DNA of 64,000 nt from Actinomycetota bacterium (GTDB lineage Bacteria; Actinomycetota; Thermoleophilia; RBG-16-64-13), in contig JADQBG010000004.1 in the NCBI GenBank assembly GCA_016278725.1, forward strand, positions 1 to 64,000. Reading direction: 5' to 3'. Within the stretch, counting starts at the first letter, position 1, and each line of letters starts with the position of its first letter. Positions 46,255 through 53,336 of the stretch are shown here, piece after piece. A program made the position numbers and the translations under genes. The notes beneath the pieces are model-generated. The model had not been told where the DNA came from. It searched no databases and saw only the letters and a program-made list of their open reading frames with translations.

Positions 46255-46815
46255 TCAGGCAGCCGTTCGTTCCATCCGTAGTGTAGACCGGTAGACCTCA
46301 TCAGGGGTCCGGTCTTCAAGGCCTTGGTGCCGGCGCCGCATGTTGTAGAAGTCGAAGTGGGTGTTCGAGACTCGGAAGGCGAGCACCCGTCGGCTGGCCC
46401 AGTCCATGATCGCCGTGAGGTAGCAGAAGCCTCTCGCCATCGGCAGATACGTGATGTCGGCCGCCCACACCTGCCCGGCGCGGGTGATCTCCATCCCTCG
46501 CAGAAGGTAGGGGTAGACCGTGTGGCCGGGGGCAGGCTTGGAGAGCCGACGTTTGGGATAGAGCGCCTCCATCCCCATCTTGCGCATGAGGGTGGCGACG
46601 TGCTGCCGGCCCACGGCAAAGCCCCGATCAAGGAGTTCGCCCCGGATCCGTCTGATCCCGTAGAACGGCAGCTTCATGTGGATGTCGTCCATGGCGGCCA
46701 TCAGGGCTAGATCCCTCTCGCTCGGTCCGACCGGCTCGTAGTAGACACTTCCGCGGGATATACCGAGAAGCTCAGCCTGTGTCTTCACCGGCAGGAGATG
46801 GGTCCGGTCGATCAT
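46255..46815 (-). pseudogene. IS3 OrfB transposase, deleted in the catalytic core
   Basis: The frame starts with HTH_21-type GISRGSVYYEPVGPSERDLA and reaches the first catalytic Asp (VWAADITYLPMARGFCYL) and RVLAFRVSNTHFDFYNMRRR. The jump from RVSNTHF to DFYNMRRRHQGL lacks about 100 residues that hold the second Asp and the Glu. It cannot transpose by itself. OrfA overlaps by ATGA. Confidence 0.88.
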
Positions 46816-47117
46816 CGCTTTGCGCTCGTGCCGCTCATGCGACCGAGCGCACCGGACAAAAAATCGTTCTCCATGGTCAGCTCGCCGATCTTGGCGTGCA
46901 GCTCGGCGATGCAGGGTCCTCCCTCCTGGTCCTGCTCACTCTCTCCGAAGACGGCGGCAGCACCCTCCAGGAGCTGGCGCTTCCACTTGGTGATCTGATT
47001 GGGATGCACGTCAAACCGCTCGGCGATGGTGATGAGGGGCTCCTCGCCCTTGATGGCCTCCAGGGCCACCTTGGCCCTGAACACCGGTGAGTGATTGCGT
47101 CTCGGTCTTCTGGGCAT
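46812..47117 (-). CDS. IS3 OrfA (DNA-binding transposase subunit)
   Basis: A 101-residue protein with a helix-turn-helix (FRAKVALEAIKGEEPLITIA followed by ERFDVHPNQITKWKRQ) and a leucine-zipper-like tail, as usual for OrfA. GGAGGAG precedes the ATG. It is intact although its OrfB partner is not. Confidence 0.88.
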   Translation of the reverse strand: MPRRPRRNHSPVFRAKVALEAIKGEEPLITIAERFDVHPNQITKWKRQLLEGAAAVFGESEQDQEGGPCIAELHAKIGELTMENDFLSGALGRMSGTSAKR

Positions 47118-47347
47118 TGTGCATGCTCCTCCGTGGTCGTGTACAGGGAGCAGTATCACCTATCGGGCTGTCCAGTTTCGCCCGGCCACTTCTGTCTGGC
47201 GGAGCTGGACCTCTCGGGTGAGCGGATGGGTGACGAGGATGCTCACCCCTCGGCCCAGAAGGAATACCAGCGAGACCTGGCCGAAGAGCGGGAGAAGTAG
47301 CCGACAGCACTCCTGCCGGCCCTGACCTCCTCCTCGGTGGGCCGCGT

Positions 47348-47832: not shown

Positions 47833-48651
47833 TCAACGATAGCCGGCGGCCTGGGCATGGGCGTCGAGATCCAGAGTCAAGAGGCGCTCCAGGCCTACGG
47901 CTGTCGCACTTCCTTCCTCCTGCCGCCGGTCTATGGTTTTGAGGTAGCCCCCACATACTTCGCAGACGTCGGTCCGATAGGGACTGGACTCGTCCGCAAA
48001 GTGGGACAGCCGAGTATGGTCTGTAGTGTTGCAGAAGGGACACCTCATCCGCTGGAACAACCACTCGGTGTCACAGCGGGAGCATACGAGCCAGCGCGCT
48101 CCCCGCTCCTCGTCGAGATAGGCGAGGTCCGGCTCACCGCCACACACCGGGCAGCGACCCTGGAGCCAGCGCTCTTGCTCGAACTCCATATCCAGACTGC
48201 TACGATACCCTGCAAAGAAGGGGTTCAGTGTCAGGGTGAGGACGGCCAGGCCATAGACCGACATCTCCATGTCCAGGGTCCCGCGAAGCCAGCCTCGGGC
48301 CAGCCGACGGACGTCCCCGGGGCCGACGACCGGTTCGATGGGCTCTTGGGCGAACAGATCCGCGTGGCGGGCAAAGACCGAAGACGTGGAGTTCAGACCC
48401 TCTTCAACTACATCCCAGTCGAGGTCGAAGTCCTCGAATTCTAGGAGCGGCTCGCCTTGATCCAGCCTCTTTTCGCGGTCGAGTTTCGCTTGGAGGGTAG
48501 GCTTTGATGTTGGCCCCCATCCCTTCCCCTGCCAGCGGAACCGCGACTGCACCTCCATCAGCTCTCGGAGAAATGCAACTAACGGCTCCGTCTCGGCTTC
48601 TTCCGCGGTCCACTCTTCCAATCTCTCCAGGGTCCGGTCATCCCCCGTCAT
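47833..48651 (-). CDS. fdhE: Formate dehydrogenase accessory protein FdhE
   Basis: A 272-residue cytoplasmic, iron-binding rubredoxin-like protein needed for active formate dehydrogenase. It has four CxxC pairs: CPVCGGEP, CSRCDTEW, CPFCNTTD and CEVCGGY. The N-terminal region is helical, as usual. It is last in the order fdnG-fdnH-fdnI-fdhE, typical of the operon. Confidence 0.92.
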   Translation of the reverse strand: MTGDDRTLERLEEWTAEEAETEPLVAFLRELMEVQSRFRWQGKGWGPTSKPTLQAKLDREKRLDQGEPLLEFEDFDLDWDVVEEGLNSTSSVFARHADLFAQEPIEPVVGPGDVRRLARGWLRGTLDMEMSVYGLAVLTLTLNPFFAGYRSSLDMEFEQERWLQGRCPVCGGEPDLAYLDEERGARWLVCSRCDTEWLFQRMRCPFCNTTDHTRLSHFADESSPYRTDVCEVCGGYLKTIDRRQEEGSATAVGLERLLTLDLDAHAQAAGYR

Positions 48652-48703: not shown

Positions 48704-49393
48704 CTATGCCTTCTCTCTTTCGCCGACTATCCGGTCGTACCACCTCCGCGAGTGTGTCCTCACGTACCCTGCGGTCACCGTGCCCCTCGTCATCGCCCGC
48801 TTGGATTCAGCGAACATCGGATGGAACAGGCTCAGGTAGAAATGAATCAGGAACATACCGCCCAGAAGTATGAAGGCGATGTCGTGAAAGAACACCAACC
48901 ACTGGAGCCACGGGGAGGGTCCGGCCAGAGCAGAGGTCTCAGACGTGGGAGAGGTGATGAACACCCACAAGAGGATGCCGGTAATCACGAGCACGGGCGC
49001 AAAGATCACTGTCAGCAGACGCCAAGCCCTCTGCCCGCCATTCAGCGTATCCTGAGCAGGCATGGTGCTACCGTCATTGAGAAAGTAGTAGCGGGGCATG
49101 GCTCTCAACCAGCCATAATCATATCTGTGCCAGGAAAAAGCATCTTTGATGAACTCCAAGGAAGCGCGGGGAGCCAGAAAGAAATAGATGACTGGGGCGA
49201 CGATGAACACGACGGCCGCCGCCGAATGGATCAGCCGGGTCCAACTGTCCTGCGCGGCAAGGGATATGCCCGGGGCAAAGAGGATAAGGCCCGTGATGAA
49301 GAGGGTCACGAAGGATCCGGCGTGGATCCAGTGTAGAATCCGGCGTGGCCTGTCATATTTGACAATCACTTCTTGATCGGCCATGGTCGACAT
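48704..49393 (-). CDS. fdnI: Formate dehydrogenase cytochrome b subunit (gamma)
   Basis: A 229-residue four-helix membrane subunit. RILHWIHAGSFVTLFITGLI gives the first helix with a heme His; LIHSAAAVVFIVAPVIYFFL and the later FFHDIAFILLGGMFLIHFYL contain the other candidate heme ligands. It anchors the exported FdnG-FdnH dimer and passes electrons to menaquinone. Its ATG follows the fdnH stop by one base, so the start at 49393 is favoured over a second ATG nine bases inside. Confidence 0.92.
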   Translation of the reverse strand: MSTMADQEVIVKYDRPRRILHWIHAGSFVTLFITGLILFAPGISLAAQDSWTRLIHSAAAVVFIVAPVIYFFLAPRASLEFIKDAFSWHRYDYGWLRAMPRYYFLNDGSTMPAQDTLNGGQRAWRLLTVIFAPVLVITGILLWVFITSPTSETSALAGPSPWLQWLVFFHDIAFILLGGMFLIHFYLSLFHPMFAESKRAMTRGTVTAGYVRTHSRRWYDRIVGEREKA

Positions 49394-49394
49394 G

Positions 49395-50249
49395 TTACTG
49401 CTCCTTCTCCTTCTCCTTCTCCTTCTCCTTCTCGGTCTCCCGGACGGCGTTCGCTCGGGCCACGAAGTAGTTGATCCCCAGCCCGAATGCACCCGCCACG
49501 AAAATCCCCAAACCCACGGGAGTGAGAATCTCATTGTCGATGGTGGCCACTGCCGGGATTTCTGGGTTGGACGGAAGCCGGTAGACCTCGGGGGCGTCGT
49601 CAAGCACGTAGAGCACATGCAGGCCGTCCAGCTCCTTTTCCCCATACAGGTGGGCTTTGCCGTGCCCTTGGCCTTGGAGCGTCTGCACCCGGTCCTTGCC
49701 GTAGGCTACCATGTCTGCCCAGTTACCCGATCGCAGCGCCCGAGGCGGACAGGACTTGACGCAGGCCGGCTGCCAGCCTTGCGAAATGCGGTCGAGGCCG
49801 GCCGTCGTGCAGAAGGTGCACTTGTCCTGTTTGCGGAAGATGTTTGCGGTGCTCTCCGAGAGGCGTGGGACGTTGAATGGACAGGCCGACACGCAGTAGC
49901 CGCAGCCGGTGCAGATGTCCTTGTTGTAGGAGACAAACCCCAAATCGTGGTGAAACAAGGCGCCGGTGGGGCACACTAGAACGCAGCCGGCGTTGGTACA
50001 GTGCATGCAGGAGCGACGGTTGAAGAGCCACCTGAACGAGTCACTGTCGTCGACCTCGTTGAACTCGATCAGGAGCCAGGTGTGGATGGAGGTGTTTGGG
50101 GGGTTTTCGTAGCTGCCGTCCATGGTAGTGTCCGACGGCAAAAAGTCTTCGTCGGTTTCGTTCCACTCCTTGCACGCCGCTTGACACCCACGGCAGGCCA
50201 TGCACAAGGTCGAATCAAACAGAATTGCTCTATCCGTGTCTTTGGCCAC
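49395..50249 (-). CDS. fdnH: Formate dehydrogenase iron-sulfur subunit (beta)
   Basis: A 284-residue electron-transfer subunit with four [4Fe-4S] Cys sets: CMACRGCQAAC, CMHCTNAGCVLVCP, CTGCGYCVSACP and CTFC...CVKSCP. A C-terminal membrane helix (VGLGIFVAGAFGLGINYFVA) tethers it outside the cell. It ends in a Glu-Lys repeat coded by a hexamer repeat. It passes electrons from FdnG to FdnI. Confidence 0.94.
   Translation of the reverse strand: MAKDTDRAILFDSTLCMACRGCQAACKEWNETDEDFLPSDTTMDGSYENPPNTSIHTWLLIEFNEVDDSDSFRWLFNRRSCMHCTNAGCVLVCPTGALFHHDLGFVSYNKDICTGCGYCVSACPFNVPRLSESTANIFRKQDKCTFCTTAGLDRISQGWQPACVKSCPPRALRSGNWADMVAYGKDRVQTLQGQGHGKAHLYGEKELDGLHVLYVLDDAPEVYRLPSNPEIPAVATIDNEILTPVGLGIFVAGAFGLGINYFVARANAVRETEKEKEKEKEKEQ
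49400..49433 (-). repeat. Hexanucleotide repeat in the end of fdnH
   Basis: GAGAAG on the coding strand is repeated about five times in tandem, encoding alternating Glu and Lys. Being six bases, unit changes would alter length but not frame. Confidence 0.85.
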
Positions 50250-50258
50250 GACTGACTC

Positions 50259-53200
50259 CTAAGCTTTCCGAACGTCGCAGAGGAAGGCTTTGTATTCGGG
50301 AATGGTGGTGTTTGCGTCGCCCTCGTGCGGGGTCAGGATATTGCCGCTATCACCCGTGCTCAACCCCACATAGCCCCAGTGCCAGACAACGCCGATCTGA
50401 TGGACCGTCTGGCCACCGACCTCGAAGGGCCTAAAGCGCTTGGTGACTACCGTCTTCATCTTGACGTCCCCTCGCGTGGAACTGACAATGGCATAGTCCC
50501 CGTTGTCGATCCCCTTCTCGGCAGCGAGTTCCTCGCTCATTTCCATGAAGGGCTCCGGCATCATCTGATTGAGCCACGGGGAGTTTCGGCTCATCTGTCC
50601 ACCCAGCCAGTGCTCAGAGACGCGATAGGTGGTTCCTACGATCGGGAACTGTTGCCGGTCGGCCCGTTCGGCAGGACGGAAGATGTGGAAGGCGGGGTCT
50701 AGCTGCTGTTTTGAGACCGGGTTGTCGATCGGTGATTCCCACGGCTCGTAGTGCCAGGGGAGGGGCCCATCTGCCAGACCCGGGCCGTAGAAGAGACCTA
50801 CGCCATCGGGTTTCATGATGAACGGCAGGTAGCCGCCCTGATTCATGGGTGGCGCTGCACCATCGGGAACGTCGCCCACCCATTCTTCGTTTCGCCACCA
50901 GATGACCGGTCGGTCTTGGTCCCACGGTACTCCATCCAGGTCCACCGAGGCGCGGTTGTAGATGATGCGCCGGTTGAGCGGCCAGACCCAGGCCCAGTTG
51001 GGGTGCATGTTGATCTCGAAGGGCCCCGGAGTGCGATCCCGGCGGCTCATACGGTTTCCGGGTATGGGAGCGTCGGGCTCCTTCTCGGGTTCGACATAGC
51101 TGTTGCAGTAGAGCCAATTGCCCGAGGTGGTGGACCCATCGGCTTTGAGATCGCCGAAGCTGTCTAGGAGCTTGCCCGTAGTAAGGTCATAGCCGTTGAT
51201 CTCCTTGGCCATGGTGCGGGGGTTGGGCGGGTCGCCGAAATCCCAGGTGAGCTGAGTGATCGATTCGGCGCTCGGACCTCCTTCTTGGTCATAGAGTTCT
51301 TTGAGCCTGCGCATGATCCGGTCGATCATCCAGGTGTCTTCCCGGCTCTCGGCAGGACCGTCGGCCGCCTTGTAGCGCCATTGAGCCATCCGGCCGCTGT
51401 TGGTCACGCTGCCTTCCTTCTCGAAGGAGTTGGCTGCGGGCAGGAGGAAGACTTCCGTCTTGATCGCAGAGGGATCGACTCCCGGACGATGCCAGAAGTC
51501 GGCGGTCTCGGTGTGCCAGAGATCGCTCACCACCAGCCAGTCGAGCTCATGCAAAGCTCGGCGCTCCAGGGTGGAGTGGGGACCGCCAACCGCTGGGTTC
51601 TGACCCCAGCAGAAGCAGCCCTTGATCGTCCCAGAGTGCATGGCCTCGAAGAGGGGGATCCAGGAGTAGTTCTTCCCCGCTTCGATCTTGGGCAAGAAAT
51701 CAAACCCGAAGCCGTTCCCTTCGGTGGCCGCGTCGCCGTACCAGGCCTTGAGCAGGCTTACCACGTACTTTGGCCGGTTGCTCCAGTAGTTGAGGCTGTT
51801 CGGCATGTTTGTGGTGGGGGTCACCCGAGTCAGGTAGGCATCGAGTGAGGTGTCCACGTCCTGAAAGACCGGGAGATAGCCGGGGAGGATGTGGTAGAGC
51901 AGGCAGTGATCTGTGGAGCCCTGTACGTTGGACTCCCCCCGCATGGCGTTGATGCCGCCCCCGGCAAGACCAATGTTCCCGAGCAACATCTGCAACATCA
52001 CGTAGGAACGTATATTTTGGGTGCCATAAGTGTGCTGCGTAGTGCCCATCGCGTAAAGTATGGTCCCCGATTTACCCGGTTTTCCTGATGCAGTGAACGT
52101 CCGGGCCACCTCGAGGAACTTATCCGGCGGCGTCCCGCAGACCCTGCTCACCATTTCCGGGGTGAACTTGTCGTATTGCCGCTTCATAATCTGGAAGACG
52201 CAGTTCGGGTCTTGCAGGGTCTTATCTCGTTTTGGCGCGCCGTTCGCGTCTGTCTGGTAGCCCCAGGTCTCCGGTATCGTCTGCCAAGAGTCAAGCTTCT
52301 GCGTCCGGTTGTACTTCCGCTTCGCGTTGTCCATTTCATTCAGACTACCTGCGTAGTCCGAAAAGAGACCATCCAGCTCTACCGGTCCTTTGAAGTCCGG
52401 ATTAACCAAGAAAGAAGCGTTAGTGTATTCCTGTATGTAGGTCAGGTTGTAGTTGTCAGGATTGGCTTCGATATCATCCAATACATATTTGATTAAACCG
52501 CTCATGAAGGAGATATCCGTGCCGGAACGCATGGGGGCGTAGAGGTCGGCCTTTGCCGACGTGCGCGTAAAGCGCGGATCTACGTGTATGAGCTTAGCCC
52601 CCTGCAACTGGGCCCTGGTCACGTGGATAAAGACCGCCGGGTGATTCTCCGCGGGGTTTCCGCCAATAGTGAGGATGACATCGGCGTTGACCACATCCGT
52701 CCAGTGGTTCGACATTGCCCCTCTGCCAAACGACTCTGCCAGAGCCGCTACGGTTGAGGAGTGTCATATTCGGGCGTGGTGCTCCAGGTACACCACACCG
52801 AGGGACCGGGCGAACTTGGCCAGGGCATAGCAGCCCTCGTTGTCGAGAGCAGAGCCGCCGAGGTTTGCGATCGCCTCGGTGCGGCTGACCACCGTGCCGC
52901 CGCTGTTGCTTGCAATAAAGGAAGTATCCCTGGTGTCTTTGACCCGCCGCGCAATGCGGTCTATGGTCCAGTCCCAGCTCTTCTCTTCCCAGTCGGCGCC
53001 GTTGGGCGCCCGGTAGAGCACGTTGTTCAACCTCTGCGGGTTGTAGCTCGCGAGTTCGCGTATCGATTGGCCCTTGGAACAGCCACCGCCCTCGTTGATG
53101 GGGTGGTCCGGATCGCCTTCGATGTTGACCACCTTGCCATCCTGGACGTCGACGATGAAGCCGCATCCGGAGGCGTCGTAGGGGCAGATGGTGATGATCT

Positions 53201-53336
53201 CCCCACGTCGCTTCCTGAGAGGGGTCAGTTGCTGCAGGGCGTTAAGCACATCGGGCCTCAGCAATCCCGCCAGGATGGCTCCGCTGACGCCGGCCCCTGA
53301 TGCTTTTAGGAAATCTCTACGGGTTAGTTCTCTCAC
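50259..53336 (-). CDS. fdnG: Selenocysteine-containing formate dehydrogenase-N alpha subunit
   Basis: The molybdopterin catalytic subunit, 1025 residues if one in-frame TGA is read as selenocysteine. Residue 191 (TGA at 52764-52766) lies in ARI-Sec-HSSTVAALAESFGRGA, the exact position of the catalytic Sec/Cys of FdnG. After it the frame continues through MSNHW, GNPAENHP and molybdopterin-binding segments to a normal end. The N-terminus TRRDFLKASG is a twin-arginine signal, so the enzyme is exported folded. The [4Fe-4S] motif reads CPYDASGC...GGGCSKG, with Asp in place of the usual second Cys. GTG start after GAGGAGGAAGG. The product oxidises formate outside and reduces menaquinone through FdnH and FdnI. 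Confidence 0.9.
52731..52766 (-). promoter_or_regulatory. Selenocysteine UGA codon and SECIS-like hairpin
   Basis: The TGA (52764-52766) is followed in the same strand by a perfect 7-bp stem with one G-U pair, CGGCTCT/AGAGTCG, around the loop GGC, 16 bases further on. Bacterial SECIS hairpins lie directly after UGA with G residues in the apical loop. The spacing is about five bases longer than in E. coli fdnG, and the lower stem is weak, so the codon assignment is surer than the hairpin. Confidence 0.6.

Follow-up and report, generated by a model that had tools for sequence, protein, structure and literature searches.

Does the TGA codon inside a gene for a formate dehydrogenase (FDH) alpha subunit, on the minus strand of a 64,000-nucleotide stretch of an Actinomycetota genome (contig JADQBG010000004.1; hereafter the window), encode selenocysteine (Sec), and does the genome hold what is needed to read it? 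The sequence features on which the answer depends were as follows.

50259..53336, minus strand: fdnG, selenocysteine-containing FDH-N catalytic (alpha) subunit (TIGR01553, Pfam and PDB matches)
52764..52766, minus strand: in-frame TGA, codon 191, Sec codon at the catalytic position (alignment of 80 relatives)
52718..52761, minus strand: bacterial SECIS hairpin, upper stem 52749..52729, GGC loop 52740..52738 (fold, frozen codons, weak SECIS_3 match)
53157..53186, minus strand: [4Fe-4S] ligand motif CPYDASGC, second Cys replaced by Asp at codon 54, 53177..53175 (alignment; GAC codon)

The fdnG frame started with GTG at 53336 and ended with TAG at 50261..50259. With TGA read as Sec, translation of 53336..50259 yielded a product of 1025 residues that carried a twin-arginine signal, MRELTRRDFLKASG, at the N-terminus. 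The TGA was the sole internal stop; the other 1024 codons were open, 834 of them between the TGA (52766..52764) and the TAG. In a profile search, the FDH-N alpha model TIGR01553 matched residues 4–1024 of 1025 with 1175 bits (cut-off 814.2), in agreement with the first-pass annotation, which had described the frame and the family motifs as continuing on either side of the TGA. The interval given there (52731–53336) did contain the TGA, but it covered only the N-terminal fifth of the gene and the SECIS loop, while the gene reaches 50259. The Pfam domains Molybdopterin, Molybdop_Fe4S4 and Molydop_binding were found in FdnG, and the protein aligned over its full length with solved Sec-FDHs, including PDB 9qm0 and 1kqf. 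The gene is a Sec-containing FDH-N alpha subunit of a well-known, ordinary selenoprotein kind. No other selenoprotein family is as widely distributed in bacteria as FDH (PMC13188914).

A search with the FdnG protein against one genome per species retrieved 80 relatives, which came from many phyla and separate assemblies. The codon aligned with FdnG 191 was TGA in 73 of these 80, TGC in four and TGT in three, so that every relative had TGA or Cys at the position that had been called catalytic from the sequence of the window. The catalytic context read HHARI-U-HSSTVAAL. TGA or Cys occupied the position in all 82 aligned rows, and the following residue (H192 in FdnG) was His in each of them. TGA also stood at this codon in two more genomes from the family of the window, one of them from the same genus.

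The assembly to which the window belongs (2.73 Mb, 26 contigs, 99.65% complete) encoded the entire selenocysteine machinery, each component scoring above its curated cut-off. The tRNA-Sec gene selC was located at C14:2172-2264 (74.9 bits, cut-off 47), and ARAGORN likewise called a tRNA-SeC with anticodon tca. The selB gene (C18:20413-21501) scored 320 bits, or 344 together with its in-frame C-terminal part, and directly adjoined selA (C18:21560-22930, 556 bits); selD was found at C26:106754-107677 (401 bits). Together, selB and selC are the signature of Sec decoding (PMC1273633). The first-pass annotation had predicted from the window alone that the organism holds selA, selB, selC and selD and that all four lie elsewhere; they were indeed all present, on contigs C14, C18 and C26. 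It had proposed a genome search for selB and tRNA-Sec, both of which were detected, and had named absence of the machinery from a complete genome as the observation that would speak against Sec; the nearly complete assembly showed the opposite. Within the window's family, selB exceeded its cut-off in 14 of the 18 genomes. Two other genes of the same genome contained an in-frame TGA. One was selD itself, with TGA at HGSG-U-ACK, the known Sec site of the SelD family. The other encoded a second, more distant FDH (C19:43539-45482, at C19:44799) with the context HCARL-U-HSSTVAGL. Genes resembling this second FDH, with one internal TGA each, occurred in many genomes of the family.

A hairpin followed the TGA of fdnG, and the first-pass annotation had already described it as a G-loop hairpin. 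It occupied nucleotides 3–46 past the TGA, with a 9-bp upper stem and, at a distance of 23 nt, the apical loop GGC; the 48 nt downstream of the TGA folded at −23.8 kcal/mol. Published bSECIS criteria describe a loop of 3–9 nt on an upper stem of 4–16 bp, a G in the first two loop positions, a spacing of 16–37 nt and a minimum free energy of −7.5 or lower (PMC13188914), and the fdnG hairpin lay within all four. Equal stability was reached by 69 of 2000 synonymous recodings and by 4 of the 1010 windows taken from this gene. Stability alone was thus a moderate signal, with a modest advantage over synonymous recodings, and the sequence constraint was much stronger. Codons 197–202 (GCG GCT CTG GCA GAG TCG) showed zero synonymous variation among 29 sequences with the type-A SECIS; over the conserved degenerate positions of the gene, the most frequent codon had a mean share of 61%. 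The definition of type A rests on the eight bases GGCTCTGG, from which the invariance of codons 197–199 follows by construction; codons 200–202 (GCA, GAG, TCG) lie outside this definition and were still invariant. The lack of synonymous variation indicates that the hairpin RNA itself is under selection. The match to Rfam SECIS_3 was weak (20 bits, gathering score 63), and binding of SelB to the hairpin is a prediction from sequence.

Beta and gamma subunit genes are expected beside an FDH-N alpha gene, and both were found directly downstream of fdnG in an operon with the order fdnG-fdnH-fdnI-fdhE, all on the minus strand.

49395..50249, minus strand: fdnH, iron-sulfur (beta) subunit with a KE-repeat tail (TIGR01582, 221 bits, below the cut-off of 334.7; Fer4_11 above cut-off)
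48704..49402, minus strand: fdnI, cytochrome b (gamma) subunit, start approximate (TIGR01583, 80 bits, below cut-off; Ni_hydr_CYTB, 81.8 bits, above cut-off)
47833..48651, minus strand: fdhE-like FDH accessory protein (TIGR01562, 55.8 bits, below cut-off; FdhE_central above cut-off)

The FdnH-, FdnI- and FdhE-like products thus scored below the strict equivalog cut-offs and above those of the corresponding Pfam domains. The C-terminus of FdnH, KEKEKEKEKE, was encoded by a short GAGAAG repeat (49395–49432, minus strand) immediately ahead of the gamma gene's start. Not far downstream of the operon lay an IS3-family transposase pair (46255–47159, minus strand), with a DUF1360 gene in between. E. 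coli FdnG (PDB 1kqf; TIGR01553) shares with the window protein a full-length alignment, the position of Sec, the twin-arginine signal and the FdnGHI gene order. The window differs from it in having Asp for the second [4Fe-4S] Cys, a SECIS with a GGC loop and an fdhE-like gene in the operon. The top-scoring solved structures for FdnG were the Sec-FDHs 9qm0, 6sdr and 8cm4 (998 bits), which we take to be Desulfovibrio-type enzymes; compared with these, the window operon adds a cytochrome b subunit, and FdnG has Asp in the [4Fe-4S] motif.

If the TGA were a true stop, fdnG would be a recent pseudogene, or the codon would be a sequencing error for TGC or TGT, the Cys codons that seven of the 80 relatives do have at this position. 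Against this stand the open state of the remaining 1024 codons, the frozen SECIS codons, the complete Sec machinery and the TGA at the same codon in 73 relatives from separate assemblies. With the two family genomes added, this shared TGA can be neither a stop that arose by chance nor an error of assembly, and we rejected the true-stop reading as extremely improbable. Even less probable is a genome-wide reassignment of TGA to another amino acid, by which codon 191 would not be specifically Sec. In-frame TGA did occur in three genes of the genome, but all three codons were at known Sec positions of known selenoprotein families, and tRNA-Sec, SelA and SelB were encoded. Within the window, moreover, fdhE, the DUF1360 gene and the IS3 pair used TGA as an ordinary stop, which rules reassignment out. 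We consider it virtually certain that TGA codon 191 is a genuine selenocysteine codon in the alpha subunit of an FdnGHI-type FDH; its readthrough is expected from what is known of the family.

Granted that FdnG contains Sec, it could nonetheless be no working FDH, since its proximal cluster has lost a Cys ligand. Asp does occur as a [4Fe-4S] ligand elsewhere, for example in Pyrococcus furiosus ferredoxin, which weakens this idea. FdnG retained three of the four cysteines typical of TIGR01553 family members (C51, C58 and C86, with D54 at the remaining position); four cysteines are a usual trait of the family rather than a condition of the model, and Asp54 is a candidate for the fourth ligand. 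Position 54 was Cys in 76 of the 80 relatives and Asp in the other four (L022–L025), all from Chloroflexota. In the tree, the window protein and these four close relatives formed one small group (SH-aLRT 97); the next branch, L038, kept Cys. Three other Chloroflexota sequences (L073, L079 and L083) had Asp for the fourth Cys of the motif instead. A DNA pattern for CPYDASGC matched a single genome, that of the window, among 396 sampled from across the phylum. A literature search on aspartate ligands and formate dehydrogenase returned nothing on the subject, judged by title and abstract. A precedent for inactivity is the FDH-like CISM protein of Dehalococcoides, which was taken to share phylum and protein family with the window FDH. 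It has Ser at the catalytic position in place of Sec or Cys and is predicted to be inactive for that reason (PMC5736913), whereas the window gene encodes Sec. FdnG has kept its catalytic Sec as well as the His after it, and the partner genes fdnH, fdnI and fdhE were present. A Sec-containing but non-working FdnG appears improbable, somewhat less so than a true stop. The aspartate could mean altered electron transfer, and we infer FDH activity for this reason from the family.

The SECIS of fdnG was of type A, while the five closest relatives (L022–L025 and L038) carried a different hairpin, GTCGCCAGTTTGGCG or near it. Sulfate-reducer relatives had the same type-A SECIS sequence as the window gene. 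The SECIS region (52718–52763) was identical at 46 of 48 nt to that of an FDH-N from a same-genus genome (L108), compared with 65% identity in the flanks; the two FDH-Ns were 58% identical. Gene conversion of the fdnG SECIS from a resident FDH-N is possible, but selection on the hairpin would look the same, given how much of the SECIS is common to other type-A sequences. The SECIS type of the window may have arisen by recombination or by convergent selection, and the data fit either. The combined proposal, that fdnG belongs to a small clade in which Asp holds the proximal [4Fe-4S] cluster and that recombination or convergence in the window's lineage replaced the SECIS with another type, almost the same as in a same-genus FDH-N, is tentative, and we hold it to be rather doubtful as a whole. 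RNAalifold found no common structure in the pooled TGA set, because at least two hairpin types were mixed in the pool. The second FDH of the window genome had a SECIS of the GGTCT-loop type. A strict pairing of SECIS type with the host SelB was unsupported, as this one genome holds both type A and the GGTCT type; one SelB presumably serves both. A Nitrospirota MAG (L055, around 1359) encoded a Cys (TGC) version that kept a type-A-like hairpin with a GGC loop; Sec seems to have given way to Cys recently there, leaving a relic SECIS.

Direct observation here covers the reading frame, the alignment, the genes of the Sec machinery and the selective constraint on the hairpin, and a route from gene to enzyme can be proposed along the lines of the family. 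SelA would make Sec-tRNA-Sec with selenophosphate from SelD, and the hairpin just downstream of UGA 191 would recruit SelB carrying Sec-tRNA-Sec, so that the ribosome would read through the codon as Sec. Sec191 would be a ligand of a bis-MGD centre with Mo or W and would participate in oxidising formate. From FdnG, the alpha subunit of a membrane-bound FdnGHI-type FDH, electrons would reach the quinone pool by way of the [4Fe-4S] clusters in FdnG and FdnH and then the cytochrome b subunit FdnI. Once mature, the enzyme should be exported and act as a formate:quinone oxidoreductase anchored in the membrane; its metal, direction of catalysis, location outside the membrane and activity are all assigned from the family.

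An annotation without recoding would break fdnG in two, a fragment of 190 residues and an ORF of 818. Read through, fdnG confirms that formate metabolism in this genome depends on Sec, with the activity itself expected from family membership. Specialist interest is limited to two side points, the Asp54 clade and a SECIS type unlike that of the closest relatives. The two SECIS types of fdnG and the second FDH suggest that a single SelB accepts both, and the Asp-for-Cys position offers a naturally occurring variant in which to study the tuning of formate/CO2 catalysis by the proximal cluster.
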